The notes beneath the pieces were generated by a model. It was not told where the DNA came from. It saw only the letters and a program-made list of their open reading frames with translations, and made no database searches. Shown here piece after piece: positions 4,748 through 55,156 of a stretch of 64,000 nucleotides of DNA. The stretch lies in the NCBI RefSeq assembly GCF_037975245.1, contig NC_092568.1:20739001-20803000 (forward strand). The letters are read 5' to 3'. The first letter of the stretch is position 1; each line of letters opens with the position of its first letter. The stretch comes from Apostichopus japonicus. Lineage: Eukaryota > Echinodermata > Holothuroidea > Aspidochirotida > Stichopodidae. The translations under genes and the position numbers were made by a program.

Positions 4748-4752
<5 letters not shown>
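3901..4752 (+). repeat. Tandem repeat, ~213-bp unit, three copies, each with a TGACGTCA site
   Basis: Copies begin at 3901, 4114 and 4326, each with TGGAAAAGAGACATTAC, and end with a GATCAGCGTAGATT motif. The first two are nearly identical. The third is diverged and enlarged by an A-run/(TA)n tract at 4343-4411 and about 100 bp of extra sequence. Each copy contains a perfect palindromic CRE, TGACGTCA, at 3985-3992, 4197-4204 and 4470-4477. The array ends where the (TA)n bounding the mobile-element island begins. Confidence 0.85.

Positions 4753-4827
<75 letters not shown>
4753..4827. repeat. (TA)n microsatellite at the left edge of the island
   Basis: About 75 bp of pure TA dinucleotide directly precede the Penelope-type terminal sequence. 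Penelope-like elements are often found next to such tracts, so this may be the insertion site. Confidence 0.9.
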
Positions 4828-4831
<4 letters not shown>

Positions 4832-4890
4832 AGAGTAGGTTGGCGTCTATCTTGGCGCAGAGTGCTCTATGTCCATTGGACAGAGCGGAA
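4828..4890 (-). mobile_element. Penelope-type terminal extension outside the inverted repeat
   Basis: These bases lie between the (TA)n and the left inverted repeat and have no counterpart on the right side. They contain an imperfect foldback, GCTCT-GTCCA/TGGAC-AT-AGAGC on the minus strand. Assignment to the Penelope end is inferred from adjacency to the hammerhead motif. Confidence 0.4.
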
Positions 4891-4985
4891 TATATGTTGA
4901 TACTAGATGAGACTAGTGGAACACTAGTAGTTGTAACTCGGAGTTTCACGCTTTGTAGCGATCTTCAGACAACTGGTAGCTTCAA
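4891..4985 (-). repeat. Left copy of the 95-bp terminal inverted repeat
   Basis: The reverse complement is identical base for base to 14608-14702. Read on the minus strand it runs from TTGAAGCTACC through the hammerhead core to TATCAACATATA and then toward (TA)n. The pair encloses the two LINEs and the GIY-YIG ORF. Identity over 95 bp implies a recent common origin or gene conversion. Confidence 0.9.
4929..4974 (-). ncRNA. Hammerhead ribozyme motif (type I, short stem III), left copy
   Basis: On the minus strand: stem I AGTTGT; core CTGAAGA (matches CUGANGA); a 4-bp stem II CGCT/AGCG with loop ACAA; core GAAA; a 3-bp stem III ACT/AGT with loop CCG; U at the cleavage position; then ACAACT closing stem I over 6 bp. 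Every catalytic core position is present. The U-U apposition at the base of stem II departs from the usual G-C pair and could lower activity. Hammerheads of this short-stem-III form are known from Penelope-like retroelements. Predicted cleavage lies between 4935 and 4934. Confidence 0.8.
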
Positions 4986-5064
4986 CAACAATAAAGGAAT
5001 TTACCCCTGTTCGACCTCGCAAGAGGTCCTACGGGGGATAATATTTAAGTTTTGTAGAATAGAC

Positions 5065-5095
<31 letters not shown>

Positions 5096-5398
5096 CTAGG
5101 GAAAGTTGTCTATTATTCAAACAGGGAGATGCTGAGAAGTGAAGTATTGTTCGATTAACATTGTTAAGAAGCCATAAGTACACAGGAGGTCGGAGCTGAG
5201 GAGCCAATTAGGTATGGATCACTAAAGGGGGAGGAATTTCTATTTAAATGGGATAAAGAAGACAGAGCGGATTCTATTGTTTTGGTCGGAAGTGGTTGCT
5301 ACTTAGTGGGATTAATGGAGTTGTACTTAGAGTATAAGTACACCTGGAGTTTGTGGTTAGACCCACTTAGGAAATGGACTTTCTAAAGAGGAGAGGCT
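4986..5398 (-). mobile_element. 3' untranslated region of LINE A
   Basis: Read on the minus strand, the sequence after the ORF2 stop contains a 29-nt poly(A) (T-run 5067-5095). A further 81 nt holding a GACCTC...GAGGTC stem-loop (5013-5028) follow, up to the inverted repeat. The LINE may end at the poly(A), or at the repeat edge with the A-run internal. The second reading is favoured slightly because LINE B has a similar small stem-loop at a similar distance from its inverted repeat. Confidence 0.6.
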
Positions 5399-8176
5399 TT
5401 AGGTAAGAAGTTTGAATACAGAGAGGTGGTGGTTTTTACGGAAGTAAGTTAATGCTACATTATGTTTCAATAGAAGTTTATTGATCAATGGATCATTCTC
5501 TAGGTTGTTTTTGTATAGTTTGGTATTAAATTCTAAGAGTAGGGTGAATAAGGATTTTGTATTTCCTGCGAGGAGAACGTGAGAGGTAGCTATATAAGAA
5601 GGGATTTTTAGGGCAAGTCGGTAAGCTGTAGTGTGGATTCTACTTAGGATTTGTTTATTGGAGTCTGAGATGGTAAGCAGAGAGATGCTTCCGTAACTGA
5701 GAATTGGTTTTATTTTGGAGTTGTAGATTTGGATAGTGGTTTTCGCAGGGAAATTATACTTATGTGAGAGGATTTGGATGTATTTAAGGTGGGACCAGCA
5801 GCGGCCTGCGGTTCTAGTACAGTGTAGGTTAAAGGATAGTTTATTATCAAAAGTGATACCAAGGAAGGTTGCATTGGGAGAGGCAGTGATTGGGGAGTTG
5901 AACAGGTTAATTTTGGAAATATAGTTACGAAGTTTTGAGTTTTTAAAGGAGAAATTGACTAAGTTAGATTTTGAGGGGTTTATTTTTATTCTCCACATTG
6001 AGCACCAGTTTTCGAGATGTGTAATTGCTTTTTTGAGATTAAGTTCCGTTATATGAATATTTTTACTGGTGCTCCAGATGGCTATATCGTCAGCGTACTG
6101 ACTATAGTTGCAGTTTGAGAGAGGGGGGATGTTTAGATCATTTACAAACAGGGTGTAGAGGAGGGGACTGAGAACAGCGCCCTGAGGGGTGCCTGCACGA
6201 AGTGGAATGGGGTTAGAATGATGGTTTTTGTAGTAAATTTTTGTGTTGCGATCTTTAAGGAAAGAGGAAAGGAGTCTGGTGTAATTGGGGGGAAGATTAT
6301 AGTTTAGTAGCTTAATTCTTATGCCGTTGTGCCAGGTTTTGTCAAATGCTTTTTCGGCATCAAGGAAGAGGGCAGTGGTATATTGTTTTTTAATGAATCC
6401 GATTCGGATTTCTTCGGAAAGACGAAAAGTTTGATTTAAGGTAGATTTGTGTGTACGGAAACCTGATTGAGATGGGGAGAAATAATCATTTAGTTCTAAG
6501 TGAGTTCTAGTGCGGTTATCTATTATTCTTTCAAAAATTTTGCCAAGGGCTGGGAGGAGGCTAATTGGGCGGTAGTTTTGTATTTTGGTGCGGTCTTTAT
6601 TTGGTTTAGGTATTAGAATCATTTTTGCGTATTTCCACGGGGTTGGGAAATAGCCCAGTCTAAGTAAATCGTTAAAAAGAGGGATAATATGAGAGTTGAT
6701 GAAAATTGGTGGGGATTTTTTAAGCATTAAGTAATTAATATTGTCAAGACCAGGGGAGGAGGTATTTTTGCATTTTTTTGTGGCGCTATACCAATCGTTT
6801 AAGTCTATTTTTTTTAGTAGAGGGATGTTATCGTTGAGATATCCTGAGGAGTTGGGGGTAAAGCTGATTGCATTTCTGCTAATTGTTTGGTCTATTTCTT
6901 GTTTGAAATTGTTATCGTAAGGGGGGCCATCAAAGATATTAAAAATATTTTTAAAGTGTGATTCAATTAGCTTAATTTGATCTTGTGTATTTGTGATCAG
7001 GTTACCTGCATCATCTTTAATGCCTTGGTCTGAATTACCAGTGTTTGGGGTTAGAATGGGATTTATGATGTTTTTTAAGTTTTTCCAGAAGTGTTTTGGG
7101 TTTTTTTCATTTATGATCGAATCGCATTTGTTTTGGACTCGTTTTTGGTCGTCCGCCAAAATTTGTCTATTTATTTGTTTTTTAAGTTGGTTAATTTGGG
7201 TTTTTAGAGTTGGATCTCGAGAGATCATATAGGTTCTGCGAAGACGGCGTCTGAGTTTAATTAGTGTAAGAATATTCCTATTTAGTTTTCGATTTTTGTT
7301 TTGTTTTGTTTTTAACGGACAATGTTTTTTGAAGATATTGAAGATATGTTGGGCAATGCTGTCACAGTAGTTGTCAATATAATTTAGATCGTTGTTGTGG
7401 TTTTTGTAAATGGGGATAGTGTTATATGTTACAAGTTCCTTTTTAAATGTTGTCCAGTTTGTTTTATTGTAGTTATATGTTAAATCGTTATTTTGAATGC
7501 GATTTAGGTTTAAGTCTAGCTCAAAGAGGAGTGGAAGATGGTCACTAATTAGGTTATCTTCTAGGATTTGAGTTGAATGAGTTTTAGTTGCGAGGTGGTT
7601 TGAGGTTATGGCGTAGTCCAGTAGTTCAGTATTATTGTTTATTGGGTTTATCCTAGTTTTGGTATTTTGGTTTATTATAGTTAAGTTGTGTTTATCACAC
7701 AATTCTAAGAGGGATATGCCCTTTTCAGTTATTTTGGAGCTGCCAAAAATGATGTGGTGGGCGTTTAGATCTCCTAGTAGAATTGTGTTTTTGTTAGAGC
7801 ATTTTTTTATTATATCAGTTGATATGGGCTCTCTTGGGGGACTATAGTAGCTAATAATGTGGAGAGGCTTATTATCTCTTTCGAGTACGATTTCAATTAT
7901 TTGATTATTTGTTTGAGTTGGGTTGGAGAGGAGAGTGGCATTGAGATTAGTTTTTACAGCTATAAGTACTCCTCCTCTAGAGCGGGAGATATCATTTCTA
8001 AAAATTTGGTAACCTGGGATGTTCAGGTGGGATTTTGGGTTTAGTTTAGTTTCATTTAGCGAAATGACATCAGGGGAGTGGTTGGTAATTAAACTTAGTA
8101 GGAGACTCAGTTTTGGAAGGATACTGTTTATGTTTAGGTGGAGGAACTTAATCGAAGGTGGGAGGTTGTTTGTCAT
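5399..8176 (-). CDS. LINE A ORF2: apurinic-type endonuclease plus reverse transcriptase (Jockey-like)
   Basis: A 925-residue open frame with no stop or frameshift. The N-terminal endonuclease shows LHLNINSI, LNETKL, GDLNAHH, LDYAIT and ISDHLPL, the usual active-site blocks of the APE-type nuclease. The reverse transcriptase follows with PKPNKDR...NYRPISLLP, SQSGFR, FLDAEKAFDKTWH, GTPQGAVLSPLLY and the catalytic QYADDIAIW. The C-terminal region carries no RNase H, and the total length fits the Jockey group rather than the I clade. The nuclease nicks target DNA and the polymerase copies the element RNA from the 3' end. The ATG overlaps the ORF1 stop as ATGA (8173-8176), pointing to translation by termination and reinitiation. 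The intact frame suggests recent activity. Confidence 0.93.
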   Translation of the reverse strand: MTNNLPPSIKFLHLNINSILPKLSLLLSLITNHSPDVISLNETKLNPKSHLNIPGYQIFRNDISRSRGGVLIAVKTNLNATLLSNPTQTNNQIIEIVLERDNKPLHIISYYSPPREPISTDIIKKCSNKNTILLGDLNAHHIIFGSSKITEKGISLLELCDKHNLTIINQNTKTRINPINNNTELLDYAITSNHLATKTHSTQILEDNLISDHLPLLFELDLNLNRIQNNDLTYNYNKTNWTTFKKELVTYNTIPIYKNHNNDLNYIDNYCDSIAQHIFNIFKKHCPLKTKQNKNRKLNRNILTLIKLRRRLRRTYMISRDPTLKTQINQLKKQINRQILADDQKRVQNKCDSIINEKNPKHFWKNLKNIINPILTPNTGNSDQGIKDDAGNLITNTQDQIKLIESHFKNIFNIFDGPPYDNNFKQEIDQTISRNAISFTPNSSGYLNDNIPLLKKIDLNDWYSATKKCKNTSSPGLDNINYLMLKKSPPIFINSHIIPLFNDLLRLGYFPTPWKYAKMILIPKPNKDRTKIQNYRPISLLPALGKIFERIIDNRTRTHLELNDYFSPSQSGFRTHKSTLNQTFRLSEEIRIGFIKKQYTTALFLDAEKAFDKTWHNGIRIKLLNYNLPPNYTRLLSSFLKDRNTKIYYKNHHSNPIPLRAGTPQGAVLSPLLYTLFVNDLNIPPLSNCNYSQYADDIAIWSTSKNIHITELNLKKAITHLENWCSMWRIKINPSKSNLVNFSFKNSKLRNYISKINLFNSPITASPNATFLGITFDNKLSFNLHCTRTAGRCWSHLKYIQILSHKYNFPAKTTIQIYNSKIKPILSYGSISLLTISDSNKQILSRIHTTAYRLALKIPSYIATSHVLLAGNTKSLFTLLLEFNTKLYKNNLENDPLINKLLLKHNVALTYFRKNHHLSVFKLLT

Positions 8177-9324
8177 TTTGGTGATTGAGGAGGGCTGAAT
8201 ATTGAAGGTTGATGGAGACGTTCCATAATTAAAGTTTTCGGGATATTTAAGTTGAGGTGTTTTAATGCTAGAACGGTGGAGTAGCTAGCAAGGTCTTCAG
8301 GTTTTATGCTGATGTTGGCTTTTTGAAAGGTATATTGAACTAATTCAATTACAAATGTAGTGATATTAAGTTTTTCTTCGGTTGCGATTTTGTTTGTAAT
8401 TTCGATTTTAGGGGCAGCTTTTGTGACATTTGCATAAGTTTTCTGTACTTGTTGTTTGTTAATTGCTTCTGTTTTGGCTTCTTTAAATTTGGGGCAGCCT
8501 TTGTAAAGGGCGGCATGACTCCCTGAACAGTTTGCGCATTTCGTATTTTCTTTTTGTACTGGGCATTCTTTGACCCGGTGGTTTTCTCCACATCTTAGGC
8601 ATCTGGTTTGATTTTTGCAGGTGTGATGAGTGTGCCCAAAGAGCTGGCATTTGAAGCATTGGGTTACTTGGGGGGGTTCGTTATATTCTTCAGTTTTGTG
8701 TTTGGAATATCCTAGGTAAAGGCCTTGTTTGATCAGTGTTTGTTGCTGTTCTTTATCTTCGAAAGTTATTTTTACCTTCCAGGTAGGGTTGTTTGTTGCT
8801 CGACTGATTAATCTTTTTGTTTGGGTTGGTGAGTATTCTTGTTCTTTTAGTTCCTCTTCGATATCTTTAATTTGGATTTCGGGGTTTATACCGCAGGCAA
8901 CTACTGAGAAATTTCTTGATCTTGTTTTTTGGGGGATTCTAGGTTTGGGGTTTCCTAATTTAGTATTTTGTGTCCATGGTTGAAGGAGAATATTTGCCGA
9001 TTTAGGGTCATGGGGGGTAATTAGTATGTCGTTACTGCGGAGACGGTTTATGTTTAGTATCATGGCGTTTGGTTTCTCTTCGTTGATTAGTTTAGCTAGG
9101 GTTATAGGGTTATTTGATATTTCTGGGAGGATACCTGAGACGATGATTGATTGGGCGGATTTTTTTGGGGCTGTCTTGGAGTTTGGGGATGGGTTTGCCT
9201 CAACGGAATTAGGGCGTTGTCTTTTCCTACTGTTTTGAACTGGGATCCAGTCATTTATATCAAAGTCAAGAAGGTTAAGGTTGTCATCAAGGGGGTCAGT
9301 TAAAGTTGGGTTAGGGGTTGCCAT
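8173..9324 (-). CDS. LINE A ORF1: Gag-like nucleic-acid-binding protein with zinc knuckles
   Basis: The start is set at the ATG at 9324 (MATPNPTLTDPL...); the frame is open upstream to 9396 but without another ATG. The product is 383 residues. A central segment with a PTWKVKITF motif resembles the region preceding zinc knuckles in Jockey-type ORF1 proteins. Three knuckles follow: CFKCQLFGHTHHTC, CLRCGENHRVKEC and CANCSGSHAALYKGC. Such proteins bind element RNA and act as chaperones. It aligns with the LINE B ORF1 along its length (both have PxWKV, three knuckles and the YKGCP ending) but is clearly diverged. Its TGA stop overlaps the ORF2 ATG. Confidence 0.9.
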   Translation of the reverse strand: MATPNPTLTDPLDDNLNLLDFDINDWIPVQNSRKRQRPNSVEANPSPNSKTAPKKSAQSIIVSGILPEISNNPITLAKLINEEKPNAMILNINRLRSNDILITPHDPKSANILLQPWTQNTKLGNPKPRIPQKTRSRNFSVVACGINPEIQIKDIEEELKEQEYSPTQTKRLISRATNNPTWKVKITFEDKEQQQTLIKQGLYLGYSKHKTEEYNEPPQVTQCFKCQLFGHTHHTCKNQTRCLRCGENHRVKECPVQKENTKCANCSGSHAALYKGCPKFKEAKTEAINKQQVQKTYANVTKAAPKIEITNKIATEEKLNITTFVIELVQYTFQKANISIKPEDLASYSTVLALKHLNLNIPKTLIMERLHQPSIFSPPQSPK

Positions 9325-9392
9325 AATGGCAAAACAGCCCCTCCCTTTTGGATCTAAATGGCTTCTTGTACAATGAAAAATCGAGCAAAACT

Positions 9393-10271
9393 TCACTTAC
9401 CAGAGAAAATTTGTCTCCAGCCTAAGGCGGCGGACGGAAAAAATAAAAAACTCCTTATGATGAGGCACTTATGGATTGAGATTGGCTTCGTAGCACAGTA
9501 ATGGTAGCAAAGGACGCGTATTGGAGAAAGTGGCGGGTAAGTCCGGAGTGAAGGCTCACGGGACGGTGTATAATACTGCTGACGTGAACGTAACCATGAC
9601 AACAAAATATATATGCTCCATGAATATATAGGATCCTCGTCGGGATTACCGGGGATTATGCGGTTGTTGGTGTATTGTTCTGCCTGAGTATTCTCTTTCG
9701 CGTCCGTTCTGTTTGTGGGTTTGTAAGACTTTCTTCGGTGTTCGGCTGTTGGTGTATTCTCTTTTGCGTCCGATCTGTTGTTGGGGTTTTTTGCCTTCCT
9801 TCGGGGCTCGCTCCTTAGTTGTGTGTGGTTCTCTTGACGGTGTTTGGTGGCGGGACTGGAGTTGTTTATGTAGAACTTGTTTTCGTGGCGACACTTCGAT
9901 ATGAGCTCTGGGCGTTTGTTCAGGAGGGTCCGTTTGTCTGTGTTGATAATGATGAGTTTTTCAGTGAGGCAGAGGTTGCACCGCTTCGACTCGTTGCTGT
10001 AGGCTTTGGCTCTGCTGGCGATCGACCAATTGATAGTGAATGGCTGGTTGTTCTGTTTCAGCTGCCAGATGTGCTTCGAGAGTTCCGTTGCGTTTTGGTG
10101 TTTTTCGTGGTTGAGCGACATCTTGTGGTTACCGTATCTGAGCTTGAAGGGGGGTTCTGTTAGGCCGATGTATGTCTTGCAGTTGTCGGTGGTTTTCACT
10201 TCGGCCTTGTATATGATGTTAGATGCCTGGCAGTTTCCATTTAGTGGGCATGTGGAAAAGGCACAGAACAT
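9393..10271 (-). CDS. Penelope-like element GIY-YIG endonuclease ORF (partial element)
   Basis: This 292-residue frame starts at the ATG at 10271 and resembles the C-terminal endonuclease of Penelope-like retroelements. Visible elements in order: a CAFSTCPLNGNC cysteine cluster (3-14), NIIYKAEV (GIY equivalent, 18-25), TYIG (33-36), R45, NHK (48-50), the SKHIW block, CNLCLTEK with the catalytic Glu near 104, and LLNKRPELISKCRHENKFYI with Asn118. After about residue 137 come two similar ~22-residue basic repeats (RRKAKNPNNRSDAKENT / RRKSYKPTNRTDAKENT). The last ~85 residues look like read-through of untranslated sequence. No reverse transcriptase is present upstream; instead 5'-truncated LINE B begins near 10255. 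The polymerase half has therefore been lost or replaced. The orientation matches the left hammerhead copy. Confidence 0.82.
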   Translation of the reverse strand: MFCAFSTCPLNGNCQASNIIYKAEVKTTDNCKTYIGLTEPPFKLRYGNHKMSLNHEKHQNATELSKHIWQLKQNNQPFTINWSIASRAKAYSNESKRCNLCLTEKLIIINTDKRTLLNKRPELISKCRHENKFYINNSSPATKHRQENHTQLRSEPRRKAKNPNNRSDAKENTPTAEHRRKSYKPTNRTDAKENTQAEQYTNNRIIPGNPDEDPIYSWSIYILLSWLRSRQQYYTPSREPSLRTYPPLSPIRVLCYHYCATKPISIHKCLIIRSFLFFPSAALGWRQIFSGK

Positions 10272-11456
10272 GCAAACAGATTCTCCACCGTCAACCGATA
10301 CCAGTTCCCTGTCGTCATCACCAACCTACCTGATTCACTTCGAACTCCACAAACCTTCGCCAGATACATCGAACAGGAATTCCCGACAGTCTCCTTCACT
10401 GGGATACAGACCACAATCAAGAAAGACATCATCATCGGCGCCACCAACATCACCTCACAGTCCACGCTCCTGAAACCATGGCAACCAACAGAAGGCCGTA
10501 CGCCAATCGCCAGACTACCGGTCTCCACAACTCCAGTTCAGAGAAAACCAGAAGTCATCGTGACTCGCATCCACCCCAACATCCCAGCAGAAGAGATCCT
10601 CCAGGAGATCCAAAGCCAGGGTTACAAGGCCAAAGCTTGTAGACGATTTTTCCGCAAAGGCACCGATACACCGATTTGGAAAGTGGCTGTCACACTCTCC
10701 ACCACGGCAGAATGTAAAGACCTCGTGTTTAATGGCATCACCATCCTCGCAAGCAGATACAACATTGAGCACGTAAAAGACACCCAAGCTGCCATCCAGT
10801 GCCACAACTGCCAGAAATTTGGGCACTACGCCTCATCATGTACGAACCCCAAGACATGTCTACGTTGCGGAGGTACGCACAGTCTTGCAGAGTGCACAAC
10901 ACCTCGTGAACAGCCAAATTGCGCAAATTGCAATCAACAACACATTGCCAGTTACAAAGGATGTCCCAGCTATCTCAAAACAGCCAAGAACCAACAACTG
11001 AAGTCAACGAGAAACCCGGCCTCCTCTCCACGCTCCAACGTGATAACCAACCAAGAAGATATCATCAAACAACTACAAGACCAACATGATAAACAACTCA
11101 TAGAAATCAACCTGAAACACCAACGAGAGATAGCAGACCTGAAAGCCAAGCACGACGCCTTACTGAAGAAAACGCATGAGGACAACGCTGCGTTCTTCCA
11201 CCAAATGCGAGAACACACCACCAAACAGATAGAGATCATCAAAGAAGACATCTCCTACTTCACCGCCGACATACTCATGACCATCGCCACATCAGGGACC
11301 AAAGAACCAGACCGGGATACTCACCTACACTCCATCATCACTCAGAAAATGAAGTCGCATCTTGGTCTCATCATCTCCAAAGAAACTCTCCGGACCAAAA
11401 TTAGCAAAAGATCGATGGATAAACTCACCTCCACCAGCTCCCACAAGACACATTAA
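10245..11456 (+). CDS. LINE B ORF1: Gag-like zinc-knuckle protein, 5'-truncated
   Basis: The frame opens after a stop at 10242 without a suitable ATG. Recognisable ORF1 sequence begins around PVVITNLPDSL (10303 onward) and continues through DTPIWKVAVTL to three knuckles: CHNCQKFGHYASSC, CLRCGGTHSLAEC and CANCNQQHIASYKGC. A predicted coiled coil follows (KQLIEINLKHQREIADLKAK and its continuation). The TAA stop is at 11454-11456. About 50 N-terminal residues present in LINE A ORF1 are missing. The true LINE sequence probably starts at about 10255, abutting the Penelope endonuclease on the other strand. This truncation makes LINE B unlikely to move on its own, although ORF2 is intact. Confidence 0.85.
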   Translation, partial: WACGKGTEHANRFSTVNRYQFPVVITNLPDSLRTPQTFARYIEQEFPTVSFTGIQTTIKKDIIIGATNITSQSTLLKPWQPTEGRTPIARLPVSTTPVQRKPEVIVTRIHPNIPAEEILQEIQSQGYKAKACRRFFRKGTDTPIWKVAVTLSTTAECKDLVFNGITILASRYNIEHVKDTQAAIQCHNCQKFGHYASSCTNPKTCLRCGGTHSLAECTTPREQPNCANCNQQHIASYKGCPSYLKTAKNQQLKSTRNPASSPRSNVITNQEDIIKQLQDQHDKQLIEINLKHQREIADLKAKHDALLKKTHEDNAAFFHQMREHTTKQIEIIKEDISYFTADILMTIATSGTKEPDRDTHLHSIITQKMKSHLGLIISKETLRTKISKRSMDKLTSTSSHKTH

Positions 11457-11518
11457 GTGACGGCCACAAACAGAAACTCTACCATCCACCAACATGGAAA
11501 ACAGATAAAGCTGAAGAA

Positions 11519-14311
11519 ATGGATGAACAACGACTACGAATTATGCAGTTCAACGCTAACTCCATCAACAACAAAATACAAGAAAAACAGGATTACCTTA
11601 ACGCTGAAAATATCGACATAGCATGCTTCAACGAAACCCGTCACAAACGCAGACCATATTTTGCAGATTTCAACATCATAGCCAGTCAGCACACCAATAC
11701 AAGAGGAGTAGTCATCGCAATCAGAAACAGCATCATTTACTCGGAAGTCAGCACAAACCAACTAATCAACAATCACAATCAACTGGGAGGAGAGGCTCTA
11801 GCAATCAATATTACCTTCAACAACGGGAAAAAAGTCATGGTACTATATATCTACTGTAGTCCTACCAAGGCCTTCCCACACCAATTTCTCAACGACATCA
11901 GCAATTCCACAAAGCACATCATCATTACCGGAGATCTCAACGCCAAACACACAACATTAGGGTGTCGCTCCACCAACCTTGCAGGAAAACAGCTCATCAA
12001 CTTACTCTCAACCAGCAACCTCATTTGCCTCAACACCGGTGAACCTACAAGGTACCCATCTACAGATTATGGCACCCCCGAACAACTGGACTACTTTCTC
12101 ATCTCTACCAACATCTATCAACTGTTCCACACCCTCAACACCGGTAAAGACCTCGGATCGGACCATTTTCCAGTCATCCTCCAACTCAACACCACAACCA
12201 AGAAAACCGTTTTACAGCCCAGACCGAATTACAAGGAAGCAGATTGGTCCCTTTATAGGATCCACATCCAGACCAATACTAAAAATTACAAGAACATCAC
12301 CACTATACAACAAATCGACAATGCAGCGGAAGAAATAACCAAAGTTATCACTAACGCCAACACAATCGCAGTTCCCGCGCATCCGCCAATCAGAAGATTT
12401 CAACTCCCAAGACATATCATCCACCTCATCAAACAACGGAGACAACTTCGGAAAGCATTCCAGCGTTCCAAGAATGCAGACATCAAAGCAAAACACAACA
12501 ACATGAAGAAGAAAATCACGGAACTCATCCGCAAGCACAAGGAGGATCAGTACAACAACAGAAGTAAACAACTCTCCAACAACAAAGATGCCAAAGATTT
12601 CTGGAAGACAGTCAACAAAATTTTCAACATCAAATCGAAGCACAGGAATATTCCCACTCTTAACTACGAGGGTCACGCTGCAACAACAGACCAAGAAAAA
12701 GCAGAAACCATCAGGAACTACTTCAGCACAGTCCACTCGATTCCGGATAAACCACAATACAACAAAAACATCTACAAACTAGCCCACTTCATCAAACGAG
12801 GATACCACTCCACCTACCATCCACAAGAAGATGTTTCAGATGAAGAAGACCAAGGACATGAAGAATACACCCGAGAAATTACACCTGATGACATCCGCAA
12901 TATACTTAAACATGCATCCAACACATCTCCAGGCAGGGATGGTATCCAGTACCTGCACCTTAAAGCAGCTCCACCGATACTCCTCGAAGCACTCAGCATG
13001 ATATACACAGCCTCATTCAAGATCGGACACATTCCACAAATCTGGAAGTCAGCCACCACCATCGTAATTCCAAAACCAGGCAAAGACCACAAACATCCAG
13101 GCAGCTACAGACCGATCAGCCTCCTTCCAGTCCTTGGGAAATGCCTAGAAAAAATCATATCCAGACGCCTCTACAAGTTCATTGAAGATTACAACATCAT
13201 CCCAGACAGCCAGGCAGGATTTCGTCGTAATAGAAGCACAACAGATCAACTATTCCACTTCCTACAACACACTTCAACCCATAGAACCAAAGGTCACCAC
13301 ACCATTGCTGCTTTCTTCGATGCAGAAAAGGCCTTCGACAGAATGTGGCACGAAGGGCTCTTACTGAAACTCAGGAAATACAACTTACCGACCAAACTCA
13401 CAAGATGGATCGCCAGTTTCCTGTCACACCGAACTACCAACTTCAAAATAGGATCATCGTTCTCTTCACCACTACACATCACCACCGGAACCCCTCAAGG
13501 CAGCACAATCAGCCCAATCCTCTACATCATGTACGTCGGAGACATCCCACAACCGGAAAACCGCTTCACACAGATCTCCCAATACGCAGACGATATCGCC
13601 ATCTGGACCAGCCACATCAATCCGGTTAGGACAGAAGAATACTTACAGCAGTACATCAACAGTATCAACCAATGGTGCCATGATTGGAGATTAGAACTAA
13701 ACCCGAAGAAATCACAGATACTCTACATCGCCAAACATAACAGACTTAGAAGACAGCCATATCTCACACTCAACAACACCGTAATACCAGTCACCAACCA
13801 AGTGCGTTTCTTAGGAATACATATCGACAGAGGGCTAACACTTGGATACCAACATCGCCTCACCCACAGAAAAGTTAAACAACGTGTTAGACTACTCTTC
13901 AGAATCGCCGGAACTACAGATAACCCTCTTGCATCACCAAGTACAACGATGAAGATCTATAAGATGATGATTAGACCACTCATCGAATATGCAGCACCAG
14001 CCATGGCTCACATCACCACAAACAACATAGAACAACTCGAAGCCACACAACGCAGAGCATGCAGAATAGCCTACCACATGTCACAGGACACAGACAGTGA
14101 AACAATAACAGCCATCGCCGACATTCCATCAGTCATCGAAAGATTAAACCAACTAAGGGATAAATTCCTAGACAGAGTCGCAGTTCCTACACACCACCTA
14201 CACCAATTCACCAAGAATCAGCTGAAACAAACACCGTTCGTCCTTGATGCAAGTCCACTGACCGGCCTGGATCTTGAAATTTGGGACCCCCAACCCTCAG
14301 AAGACATTTAA
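11519..14311 (+). CDS. LINE B ORF2: endonuclease plus reverse transcriptase (Jockey-like)
   Basis: An uninterrupted 930-residue frame. The nuclease blocks are MQFNANSI, CFNETRH, GDLNAKH, LDYFLI and GSDHFPV. The polymerase blocks are PKPGKDHKHPGSYRPISLLP, SQAGFRRNRST, FFDAEKAFDRMWH, GTPQGSTISPILY and QYADDIAIW. There is no RNase H. It is homologous to LINE A ORF2 but diverged throughout, so the two represent different families of one clade. Unlike LINE A it does not overlap ORF1: 62 bases separate them and hold a tiny ATG frame (11493-11507) that ends before the ORF2 ATG, which may affect reinitiation. The base composition is less AT-rich than in LINE A. Confidence 0.93.
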   Translation: MDEQRLRIMQFNANSINNKIQEKQDYLNAENIDIACFNETRHKRRPYFADFNIIASQHTNTRGVVIAIRNSIIYSEVSTNQLINNHNQLGGEALAINITFNNGKKVMVLYIYCSPTKAFPHQFLNDISNSTKHIIITGDLNAKHTTLGCRSTNLAGKQLINLLSTSNLICLNTGEPTRYPSTDYGTPEQLDYFLISTNIYQLFHTLNTGKDLGSDHFPVILQLNTTTKKTVLQPRPNYKEADWSLYRIHIQTNTKNYKNITTIQQIDNAAEEITKVITNANTIAVPAHPPIRRFQLPRHIIHLIKQRRQLRKAFQRSKNADIKAKHNNMKKKITELIRKHKEDQYNNRSKQLSNNKDAKDFWKTVNKIFNIKSKHRNIPTLNYEGHAATTDQEKAETIRNYFSTVHSIPDKPQYNKNIYKLAHFIKRGYHSTYHPQEDVSDEEDQGHEEYTREITPDDIRNILKHASNTSPGRDGIQYLHLKAAPPILLEALSMIYTASFKIGHIPQIWKSATTIVIPKPGKDHKHPGSYRPISLLPVLGKCLEKIISRRLYKFIEDYNIIPDSQAGFRRNRSTTDQLFHFLQHTSTHRTKGHHTIAAFFDAEKAFDRMWHEGLLLKLRKYNLPTKLTRWIASFLSHRTTNFKIGSSFSSPLHITTGTPQGSTISPILYIMYVGDIPQPENRFTQISQYADDIAIWTSHINPVRTEEYLQQYINSINQWCHDWRLELNPKKSQILYIAKHNRLRRQPYLTLNNTVIPVTNQVRFLGIHIDRGLTLGYQHRLTHRKVKQRVRLLFRIAGTTDNPLASPSTTMKIYKMMIRPLIEYAAPAMAHITTNNIEQLEATQRRACRIAYHMSQDTDSETITAIADIPSVIERLNQLRDKFLDRVAVPTHHLHQFTKNQLKQTPFVLDASPLTGLDLEIWDPQPSEDI

Positions 14312-14607
14312 TTCCATCTCAGAAACCAGCCAAGTACATCACCAGCCAAGTTCAAATTGTATCCTCTGTGACGTCCGTCCGTACCATCCGAAGAACCAAC
14401 CATCCCGTTCATGTATCTTTCCTCCTTGTCAGCTTCCAGAAATGTTTCTCCGACCCGGCCCACAAAGTTCATATTTTCCATAATCTCAAAATTTTCAGTT
14501 CTCTCAAACCTTGGAGTCTAATTTTTACCGGCCAGGGGCTTTCGCCCTTGGCTTGCTGAAGCACCTTACGGTGGAAACAGCGTAATACTAGACATAAGTA
14601 AGTAAGC
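14312..14607 (+). mobile_element. 3' untranslated region of LINE B
   Basis: About 296 bases follow the ORF2 stop. Two small stem-loops (GGGGCTTTCGCCC and CACCTTACGGTG, 14562-14573) precede a TAAG-repeat tail (CATAAGTAAGTAAG) that ends exactly at the right inverted repeat. Stem-loops plus a short-repeat tail are typical of LINE 3' ends recognised by the reverse transcriptase. Confidence 0.6.
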
Positions 14608-14693
14608 TTGAAGCTACCAGTTGTCTGAAGATCGCTACAAAGCGTGAAACTCCGAGTTACAACTACTAGTGTTCCACTAGTCTCATCTAGTAT

Positions 14694-14702
<9 letters not shown>
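14608..14702 (+). repeat. Right copy of the 95-bp terminal inverted repeat
   Basis: It is identical to the reverse complement of 4891-4985 and is followed at once by (TA)n. It joins the end of LINE B at TTGAAGCTACC, the same base at which the left copy meets LINE A. Confidence 0.9.
14619..14664 (+). ncRNA. Hammerhead ribozyme motif (type I, short stem III), right copy
   Basis: Stem I strands are 14619-14624 and 14659-14664. The core CTGAAGA is 14625-14631, stem II CGCT/AGCG with loop ACAA covers 14633-14644, core GAAA is 14646-14649, and the 3-bp stem III covers 14649-14657. The cleavage nucleotide is U14658. It is identical to the left copy but on the opposite strand, so each ribozyme lies on the sense strand of the neighbouring LINE and downstream of it. 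Confidence 0.8.
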
Positions 14703-14760
<58 letters not shown>

Positions 14761-14767
14761 AATATTA

Positions 14768-14808
<41 letters not shown>

Positions 14809-14862
14809 TATAAAAATAAATATATATAAATAAATATATTTATATATATAAATATATACTGT
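14698..14862. repeat. (TA)n and TAAATA-rich microsatellite at the right edge of the island
   Basis: Pure TA to about 14753, then interrupted TA/AAATA sequence. It mirrors the (TA)n at the left edge. Confidence 0.85.
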
Positions 14863-18617: not shown

Positions 18618-46642
<28,025 letters not shown>

Positions 46643-52612: not shown

Positions 52613-53271
52613 CCTCCCCCCCCCCCCCTCACTAAAATCTTCTAGCAAAGGTTCTCGTATATATGCACATTAAGACATTACTATTTAATATTTGGAAGAT
52701 ACAAAACGTTTCTCGATGTTCCTTAACTGCCCCCCCCCCCCCCTAAAGATTCTACACAGGTTACTGATCTGAACTTAATACTCACATTTAAAGATTTCAA
52801 TGACATAAATTTGTGAAGGGCTTCAAATTGTTTAATTTAGTATAAACATTAAATCAATCGCAAACATTTCAGGCTAGAATATTACAAAAATAATGTAGTA
52901 ATGGTACATAAGAAATCATTTCCATACATCGTAAAAATTGCGTTATCTGTCAGAATTATGTTATTTTTTCTAATTGGGGTGATGTAACGTACAGCACCTG
53001 CATTCACAGATAGTTCTTATTTTATAATTTTTTAAAAATAGTTTTTAAATTAAAATTTCAATAAAATGCAAAACATTCATGCCAAATTATATTTATAATG
53101 ATTCAATGTGCATTCCGCAAACGAGCATTCTTATTTTGCTGTTACAGCAATAATTCAATGAATAATTACAAGCACTTCTTGTCCAATTCCTTGAACATAC
53201 CTTTCATATGTTAGTTCATCATTTTGTTTCAACAGAAGTATATAGTATCGTCTAAGAAAAGAGACATCATT

Positions 53272-55156
53272 ATGAAGAGGAACGATATCGCTCATTGGAT
53301 GGGATGTGTCATCGTATTATTGACCATCTCACGTAGTGCAGCATTTGGTAAATTTGGTGATGAACATGTTCTCGACTTGGTTCGTCGACAAGTCAACAAG
53401 GAGACAGAAAACAGCAGCGACTACACCTCAGTGATCACACTGTCCAGCACTGGGTCATTGGTCAGCTCAACAACGGCCTCCGTCAGTACAAAAGCTCCAT
53501 CCTCGGTTGCATCATCGACCAAAGAGGAAGAGACGAACGCCACCGAGCTAGGGATCTTGGGATTACCAACCAACTACCCGCAGGAAGAGAATGACGTCGT
53601 CTATTGCAGGCCAGCTCCAACACCCAGTGACGTTCTGCTAGAGTACGGAAACTTCAGTATGGAAATCGATGATCAATTCGTGAAGATATATGAAGGAAAC
53701 GATGGACATGTAGATATCAGAATCACTGGCTTAAAAAAGATCGTTAAGATCGAGCTGAGGAGTAACGACGAATTGGTCTTTGAGGTCGTCAATGGTAGTG
53801 TTCATCACGACCCAGATAACTATGAGATCCACAATGGGACGTTGACTATCCATCTGAAAGGGTTGCAGCTTGGCGTTTCTCGAATGGTCCTTACCATCTA
53901 CGATCAACACGGTGCGATCGTTATCAAAGAAGATGTCAGGTTCACAGTCAAGACTCTAAGAGTTCCGAGACTGATAGACACAATCTTCAACTATCTTCTG
54001 CTTCCGTTGATCGTTGTATCCTGTGCCGGTATGGGCTGTAAGATGGAGATTGAAATCATCAAAATGAAACTGAAGAAACCTATCAGCATTTTGGTAGGAC
54101 CAGTATGCCAATTCATCTGTCAACCTTTGTTTGCCTTTTCGATTGCCAAGTTGATGAAGTTTGATGGTCTGAGTGCCCTCGGGTTGGTAACAGTTGGGTC
54201 ATGTCCAGGTGGCGGTATGAGTAACATGATCACGCTCCTGATCGGCGCCGATCTCATCCAAAGCGTCACTATGACATTTACGTCCAACATCTGTGCGTTA
54301 GCAATGTTACCTCTGAATATGTTCATCTACGGGAGTCATTTTATGAAAATAATCGTGGAAGAAGGTGGCGGTGGAGCGAGTTTCAAAATCCCCATAACAG
54401 ATATTATGTTCCAGATTGCGATGTTAGCTGGTCCCGTCTTGATCGGTATGGCAGTTCGTTGGAAACTGCCTAAAGTTGCCTATTATGTCAACAAGTCCTT
54501 GGGTGTTTTATCCATGACACTCCTCCTACTTACTCTGGGCATCGGGGTCTATTCAAATATATACGTGTTTACCTCATCGGGATGGAGAATGATGGTTGGT
54601 GCTGCACTGCTACCAAATTGCGGTTTCATCACGGGATTTCTTGTAGCCAGGTAAGCCATGTTGGTCATTTCTACGAAGGTACATCGACATATGCCCTTGA
54701 TAGTGAATATCATATCATATGATGAACATGTTACCATAAACGCTGCGTTATGATGAAATCTTCGCGGTAAGAACCAGTTTATTTGCTCCGCATTCTAAGA
54801 TATTTACCTGAAAAGTAAAATTTTGTTGTAATAGCTTTGGGCACAATTAAAACATGTCAGTTTCCCAAGAAGAACCATTATTGGCTACGTTTAAAAAGTA
54901 ATATGCGACTATTGAACATTTACACTTTGTCATTTCTGTAATTATACCTGGAAGTGTCACATCATGTGAAAACATCCCGTGTCATTCTATGCCCGTATAA
55001 AGGAGCGGGTAGGCACTTAGGGTTTGAACGGACCTTCCCTCCACCCCTCAAAAAAACAAAAAAAAAACACGCAATTCCATGTTTATAGAGGCTGATCGTT
55101 CAAATCAGTTTACATTTACTTCCATATCGAAATTCTTCAATTCTTTGAACATGCAG

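Follow-up and report, generated by a model that had tools for sequence, protein, structure and literature searches.

A probable Penelope-like element insertion with LINEs at its stop-codon site in Apostichopus japonicus

A 9.8-kb unit bounded by inverted repeats lies within a 64,000-nucleotide stretch of the Apostichopus japonicus genome (NCBI RefSeq assembly GCF_037975245.1, contig NC_092568.1, positions 20,739,001 to 20,803,000), referred to here as the window. The unit is best read as the insertion of a Penelope-like element (PLE) into (TA)n sequence, with long interspersed nuclear elements (LINEs) lodged at a single site, AAC^TTGAAGC, at the stop codon of the PLE reading frame; a probability of about 0.72 is assigned to this reading. 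From left to right, the unit consists of a terminal extension, a core repeat on the minus strand, a minus-strand LINE (LINE-L), a 643-bp PLE minus arm, a 12-nt filler, a plus-strand LINE (LINE-R) and a second core repeat on the plus strand (Table 1). It is internal in its contig, at C8:20.74-20.75 Mb of 43.0 Mb.

Terminal repeats and ends of the unit

The two 95-bp core repeats are exact reverse complements, and arm comparison extends the complete complementarity to positions 4890-4985 and 14608-14703. When the genome from which the window comes (671.6 Mb in 35 contigs) was searched, the 95-mer was found at 99-100% identity in at least 40 places, the window's two included (scored: 40 of 792 candidates). 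It is not confined to the 9.8-kb unit: 38 of the scored places are additional to the window's two. Stop-to-stop PLE frames of 567, 635 and 668 amino acids (loci L025, L022 and L017) end at the repeat's first bases and carry FISFDIVEFYPSI, LYRDDG and IIYKAEV..TYIGLTEPPF; the YRDD-type and GIY-YIG-like motifs are presumably signatures of a reverse transcriptase and an endonuclease. The window retains just a 214-aa C-terminal piece of this protein.

The ends of the element were inspected at 21 loci, namely the window and L009-L028. Thirteen of these are readable inverted units (the window, L009-L014, L018, L019, L021, L025, L026 and L027), and the eight excluded loci are tandem (L015, L016), broken (L020), single truncated arms (L017, L022) or without a second end that could be found (L023, L024, L028). 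All thirteen readable units have an extension of about 60 nt at exactly one end and none at the other, a pattern with a probability of 1e-4 were the ends independent, and all thirteen have (TA)n-rich sequence at both ends. PLE copies are inverted, tandem or single 5'-truncated arms, and the two single arms meet (TA)n. Truncation points vary from arm to arm, the arms of inverted units meet head to head, and some arms are shorter than 100 nt. Tandem and inverted 5'-truncated PLE terminal repeats (pLTRs), a tail extension at one end and AT-rich simple targets are all traits of PLEs.

The original prediction had described exact inverted repeats, a relationship to PLEs and (TA)n at both ends, and had proposed a new ribozyme-bounded composite element. 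The repeats were confirmed, and the relationship to PLEs is borne out by the copies, their ends and their (TA)n targets. Direct contact with (TA)n was found on the right only, whereas about 62 nt of PLE sequence (4829-4890) intervene on the left. The proposal of a new composite was not sustained: the ends look like ordinary inverted PLE repeats and are present at 38 other scored places, and the LINEs are found outside PLEs as well.

The central head-to-head junction was matched at full length in the window only (40 of 82 candidates scored), the other 41 rows covering at most one half of it, and the 9.8-kb unit is therefore not a repeating element. A search of the genome for the same ends recovers the 95-mer elsewhere, and no second copy of the whole unit among the candidates scored. 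The unit represents a single event, or a brief sequence of events at this locus, and not a new element family. A short palindrome, GCATGT/ACATGC, flanks the junction (window 10235-10280); in the accessible part of a study of Adineta vaga PLEs, similar junction palindromes are read as marks of self-priming (PMC3846280).

Each core repeat contains 46 nt with the letters of a hammerhead ribozyme, one on each strand of the window. A gapped pattern for the hammerhead core matches the window twice, where 100 shuffles gave a mean of 0.01, and the letters agree with a minimal type I hammerhead in the CUGANGA and GAAA cores, in stems I-III and in an H at position 17. Stem I comprises 6 bp, and stem III comprises 3 bp closed by a 3-nt loop. 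Across six variant copies, 6 of the 11 free positions are substituted, as against 4 of the 35 constrained ones (Fisher p 0.006); when an indel-shifted stretch of L071 is set aside, 6 free and 2 constrained positions are substituted (p 0.001). The indel-bearing L012 copy and second L015 copy were excluded from these counts. The 95-mer carries a minimal type I hammerhead motif, the activity of which is predicted from its letters.

The PLE stop codon as an insertion site

In the PLE frame (ATA ACT TGA), the insertion nucleotide, AAC^TTGAAGC, falls at the stop codon, beside the ribozyme motif. Both window LINEs meet the repeat at TTGAAGC, at the same nucleotide in each arm, and the inverted repeat has its inner limit at TTGAAGC because a LINE lies there in each arm. 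A sequence holding ATAACTTGAAGCTACC is a candidate target of the APE domain of LINE-R. In other PLE copies LINE-L, LINE-R and a third repeat, R', are each found at AAC^TTGAAGC with target duplications, among them LINE-L in L030 and, flanked by a duplication of 10 nt, LINE-R at C2:25.37 Mb. The duplications are 10-15 nt long where read, and because they restore the stop codon, both the PLE frame and the 3' repeat survive.

R' is a repeat of about 360 bp that resembles a short interspersed nuclear element (SINE), and its terminal 43 to 75 nt show 74-80% similarity to the end of LINE-R. No tRNA head was found in the six R' inserts examined, and a tRNA scan of the window was negative. Junctions between R' and the PLE repeat account for 17 of the 42 rows of the junction search, among the matches listed. 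Fifteen of the 40 scored R' candidates (446 in total) lie at the stop-codon site, 11 by coordinates shared with the junction list, one of which (C3:2.67 Mb) is a rearranged cluster, and 4 by reading of the letters. Two further copies have antisense PLE body as their 3' flank (L059, L070), L059 on both sides. The R' duplications match the variant of the host PLE (TTGAAGCTAC, TTGAAGCCAC, CTGAAGC, TTGTTGTCTG, TTGAAGCTACC and TTGAAGCTACCAGTA), and because each copies the letters of its own host, at least six R' insertions were independent. Amplification of one insertion in a master PLE was considered and rejected, both for the R' copies read, in which duplications and ends differ, and for the LINE-L copies of L009 and L014, in which the single-nucleotide polymorphism lineages differ.

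LINE-R 3' ends were reached at 85% or more in 17 rows, five of which run on into the PLE repeat; one of the other twelve was read and lies elsewhere, and the rest were placed elsewhere from their absence among the junction matches listed. LINE-L has four of its 23 best places in PLEs, two of them at the stop-codon site, and the other two (L009, L014) share a different PLE site with the same duplication and belong to different sublineages. PLE-site insertions are in large excess even at a guessed PLE share of 0.35% of the genome, with probabilities that are rough because the share is guessed and the places were ranked by score.

Two other observations concern the same elements. In L020 (7600-7730), a PLE minus arm is broken at the same AAC^ nucleotide by further sequence, without a duplication. 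R' is found three times at one site of another repeat family, ...GATCAGAGTACTC... or close to it (L062/L081, L064/L083 and L068/L087, by eye), and may have several preferred multicopy targets.

What appears new is that several non-long-terminal-repeat (non-LTR) families land time and again on the PLE stop codon, together with the likely transport of LINE-R. Literature searches, in which subscription papers were mostly beyond reach, turned up no title dealing with a LINE or SINE inserted at the stop codon of a PLE, and neither such insertion nor transport of a LINE by a PLE was met in the titles and partial texts consulted.

LINE-L and LINE-R

The two LINEs of the original prediction are well supported, APE endonuclease and reverse transcriptase being identified by Pfam in the second open reading frame (ORF2) of both. 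The ORF2 products are 30% identical (BLASTP), and LINE-L and LINE-R are therefore two families; both also occur outside PLEs. LINE-L ORF1 matched no Pfam family at E<=0.01, and we take its CCHC-like knuckles to fit the I/Jockey group, the Jockey label being that of the original prediction. The window LINE-L lacks a target duplication, with 2 nt lost and a TATAT filler at 9607-9611. The window LINE-R is recognized as truncated in ORF1 because LINE-R extends farther upstream both at C12:31.68 Mb and at C3:30.91 Mb.

LINE-L and LINE-R adjoin at three further places (C3:30.90-30.91 Mb, C12:31.67-31.68 Mb and C17:19.58-19.59 Mb). Single LINE-L copies lie just upstream of a U2 snRNA gene (L035; Rfam U2), with a second U2 5.3 kb off, and within a putative histone H3 coding sequence (L032), the surrounding letters being presumably those of histone H3. 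Two more copies (L038, L040) occupy one shared site of another repeated sequence.

Table 1. Features of the 9.8-kb unit and its flanks, in window coordinates.
Feature	Position	Strand	Description	Evidence
Left (TA)n target array	4749..4828	.		Tandem repeat scan, end table
PLE 'tail' extension	4829..4890	-	About 62 nt, outside the 95-bp repeat	100% match to PLE copies; single-ended in 13/13 readable units
Left core of PLE terminal repeat (pLTR)	4891..4985	-	95 bp	Arm comparison, genome copies
Minimal type I hammerhead motif	4929..4974	-	Predicted cleavage after base 4935, minus strand	No Rfam match
LINE-L	4986..9606	-	Full length, ends in (TTG)n, against repeat at TTGAAGC	99.7% copies in L009, L014; copy ends, flanks
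LINE-L ORF2	5399..8284	-	961 aa, APE endonuclease and reverse transcriptase	Pfam RVT_1 1e-39, Exo_endo_phos_2 2.2e-18
LINE-L ORF1	8173..9396	-	407 aa stop to stop, CCHC-like knuckles (motif reading)	Translation
PLE minus arm	9612..10254	-	5'-truncated, 214-aa C-terminal piece (GIY-YIG by motif only)	98.4-98.9% to other PLE copies; translation
Filler at head-to-head junction	10255..10266	.	12 nt	GCATGT...ACATGC complementarity across filler
LINE-R	10267..14607	+	5'-truncated inside ORF1, 3' (AAGT)n directly against PLE repeat	Junction reading
LINE-R ORF2	11423..14311	+	962 aa, APE endonuclease and reverse transcriptase	Pfam RVT_1 1.1e-44
Right core of PLE terminal repeat (pLTR)	14608..14702	+	95 bp	Arm comparison, genome copies
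Minimal type I hammerhead motif	14619..14664	+	Predicted cleavage after base 14658	
Right (TA)n-rich target array	14703..14858	.	Entered directly, without extension	Tandem repeat scan, end table

LINE-R as possible cargo of the PLE

The five fusions of LINE-R with a PLE end were checked at the 5' end of the LINE, where PLE plus-arm sequence and TTGAAG were sought in the 50-65 nt read. Four of them (window, C2:4.74 Mb, C7 and C12:20.98 Mb) have neither upstream PLE sequence nor a duplication, and have four different LINE truncation points; at the window LINE-R, the plus-arm sequence and the TTGAAGC duplication are both absent. Both are present in the fifth, at C2:25.37 Mb, which is simply a nested insertion. 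At C2:4.74 Mb (L016), the truncated LINE-R borders on an unrelated old repeat and has the PLE copy downstream. The lack seen in the four fusions is what carriage of LINE-R by the PLE would predict, and the window LINE-R, whose right end is a PLE end in (TA)n, suits this reading best; such carriage is given slightly better than even odds. LINE-L, which has PLE sequence on its far side, may either be cargo as well or have nested there afterwards.

In the mechanism proposed, the PLE enzyme would nick both strands within (TA)n, and reverse transcription would start at one of two internal repeat sites on each side. PLE RNAs would then be copied, each of those in the window with a LINE lodged between the stop codon of its PLE frame and the 3' repeat, and the joining of two truncated cDNAs would produce head-to-head arms with outward repeats. 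On this view LINE-R, which is cut short in ORF1 and runs directly into the opposite arm, would be cargo that the PLE transported. Priming on both sides would be in keeping with the Anolis enzyme, which cuts each strand and extends it (PMC11167929), and cargo is plausible because, in the accessible part of the A. vaga study, published PLEs capture DNA between the ORF and the 3' pLTR, and pLTRs suffice in cis (PMC3846280). It is possible, though tentative and rather more doubtful than the cargo step by itself, that LINE-R and R' are hyperparasites that home to the PLE stop codon and are carried by the PLE machinery to new (TA)n, the 9.8-kb unit being one two-sided PLE insertion primed with two LINE-carrying RNAs.

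Alternative explanations

Plain nesting competes with the cargo step only. The PLE would have arrived first and LINE-L and LINE-R later, into both arms, with nothing co-mobilized, and the missing duplications would be explained by 5' junctions formed through deletion and microhomology. Both LINE families can enter the stop-codon site with a proper duplication (LINE-R at C2:25.37 Mb, 10 nt; LINE-L in L030), PLE sequence lies upstream of the window LINE-L, and the LINE-L copies of L009 and L014 reached one other PLE site independently, all of which favours nesting. It accommodates less easily the four of five LINE-R fusions without upstream PLE sequence or a duplication, at four different truncation points, and in the window it requires the loss of any plus arm between LINE-R and the other arm. 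Nesting is a serious contender that falls somewhat short of an even chance.

Several findings weigh against the reading of the unit as a hammerhead-bearing PLE insertion that brought in LINE-R as cargo. The GIY-YIG endonuclease of the original prediction stands as a motif reading, but no relevant domain was returned for the PLE protein by Pfam, NCBIfam or PDB, and a single-sequence structure prediction of the endonuclease piece was uninformative (mean predicted local distance difference test score, pLDDT, of 39). The motif letters and stems I and III of the predicted hammerhead fold hold, but its 4-bp stem II does not, being three Watson-Crick pairs and a U.U apposition (10.1/11.1). One stem I pair is lost in L054, and the core G8 in the second, diverged L015 copy. 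None of the Rfam 15 hammerhead models reached its gathering score in the 64 kb, and a failed match, together with absence of cleavage, was among the outcomes that the original prediction had listed as telling against it; at E<=10 no hammerhead appeared among 10 matches (10.4 kb) or among 3 matches (111 nt), and minimum-energy folds did not yield a complete hammerhead. The missing Rfam match is nevertheless not decisive, because PLE hammerheads are described as minimal variants without helix III or loop-loop contacts in the accessible part of a review (PMC7761336). The stop-codon site is preferred and not required, since R' and both LINEs also insert elsewhere. As for the cargo step, no (TA)n adjoins the LINE side of the C2:4.74 Mb fusion, although the single-arm PLE copies L017 and L022 do meet (TA)n; C7 and C12 are old fusions and just 91-93% alike; a LINE insertion, such as the window LINE-L, can lack a duplication as well; and the window LINE-R might have nested secondarily and removed some of the arm in doing so.

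Three further explanations address the unit as a whole. A new composite transposon, moving both LINEs as one 9.8-kb unit between ribozyme-bearing repeats, would fit the exact terminal inverted repeats and the long ORF2 frames, but is very improbable given a central junction that is whole in the window alone (among the 40 of 82 candidates scored) and given that the same ends bound units of other sizes and contents. Scarcely any credence can be given to a terminal-inverted-repeat DNA transposon inserting at TA, despite the 95-bp inverted ends in TA-rich targets and the short copies of varied length: the ends are unequal in all thirteen readable units, the head-to-head arms are variably truncated (some to less than 100 nt), direct tandem copies exist, and the internal frames have motifs read as reverse transcriptase, with no transposase noticed among the frames listed. 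Palindromic TA-flanked repeats are difficult to assemble, and one arm might be a false mirror of the other; this is highly unlikely, as the arms hold different LINEs and different ends, and 12 further units elsewhere show the same end architecture, with junctions that differ where mapped.

Comparison with known systems

The comparisons that follow extend to the accessible portions of the papers cited. The unit resembles the endonuclease-containing Penelope elements of A. vaga (PMC3846280) in its inverted pLTRs, mostly head to head, its 5' truncation and its junction palindromes. In the A. vaga PLEs one inverted pLTR may bear a 31-bp tail at its 3' end, Pen1 holds 0.9-1.5 kb of captured DNA between the ORF and the 3' pLTR, and an NRPS gene has been found between pLTRs, which are stated to be sufficient in cis. 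In contrast, the foreign DNA described here consists of LINEs and a SINE-like repeat that enter at one nucleotide, the stop codon, and the extension, roughly double in length, is one-ended in all readable units. The PAc/Poseidon PLE of Anolis (PMC11167929) shares a pLTR hammerhead and AT-rich targets; its reverse transcription starts from two internal sites that bound the tail, and both strands are cleaved and extended. In vitro, however, no difference in start site was observed between its two strands, whereas one site per end is used in each readable insertion here, and the portion of the text accessible mentions no LINE passengers.

Terminons (PMC6431247) are likewise PLE-related, with hammerhead motifs and a multi-ORF content. 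They are giant, telomere-attached and rich in ORFs, whereas the present unit has an internal position in (TA)n and owes its long frames to the two LINEs; a Terminon, with which the original prediction had drawn a parallel, was rejected on these grounds. Animal retrozymes (PMC7229834) also have type I hammerheads in retroelement-derived repeats, but are small circular-RNA elements of about 170-400 nt, and a retrozyme was rejected, the only two motif-pattern matches of the window being those of the PLE. Target-specific non-LTR retrotransposons (PMC4640811) similarly insert at a fixed nucleotide in multicopy sequence, and transposons are among their known targets. Unlike these, LINE-R and R' prefer the PLE site without requiring it, and a PLE target is not mentioned in the accessible text.

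Other features of the window

Two minisatellites lie close together, one of 33 copies of 27 bp (32591-33488) and one of 6 copies of 49 bp (31533-31825). Pieces of host genes include a frame of the bile-acid sodium symporter family (53215-54651, plus strand) and a proprotein convertase P-domain (18621-19397, minus strand).

Implications

The integration of PLEs is poorly understood. Units whose ends draw on different start sites in each readable case, and whose arms may hold different passengers, would preserve in nature the trace of target-primed reverse transcription that proceeded from both sides on two RNAs. The recurrent arrival of several LINE and SINE-like families at the PLE stop codon suggests a safe harbour inside another retroelement, and a route by which LINEs could be moved by foreign machinery. 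If the hyperparasite reading is true, the stop-codon site would cost the PLE nothing and would give LINE-R and R' a ribozyme-bearing 3' end.

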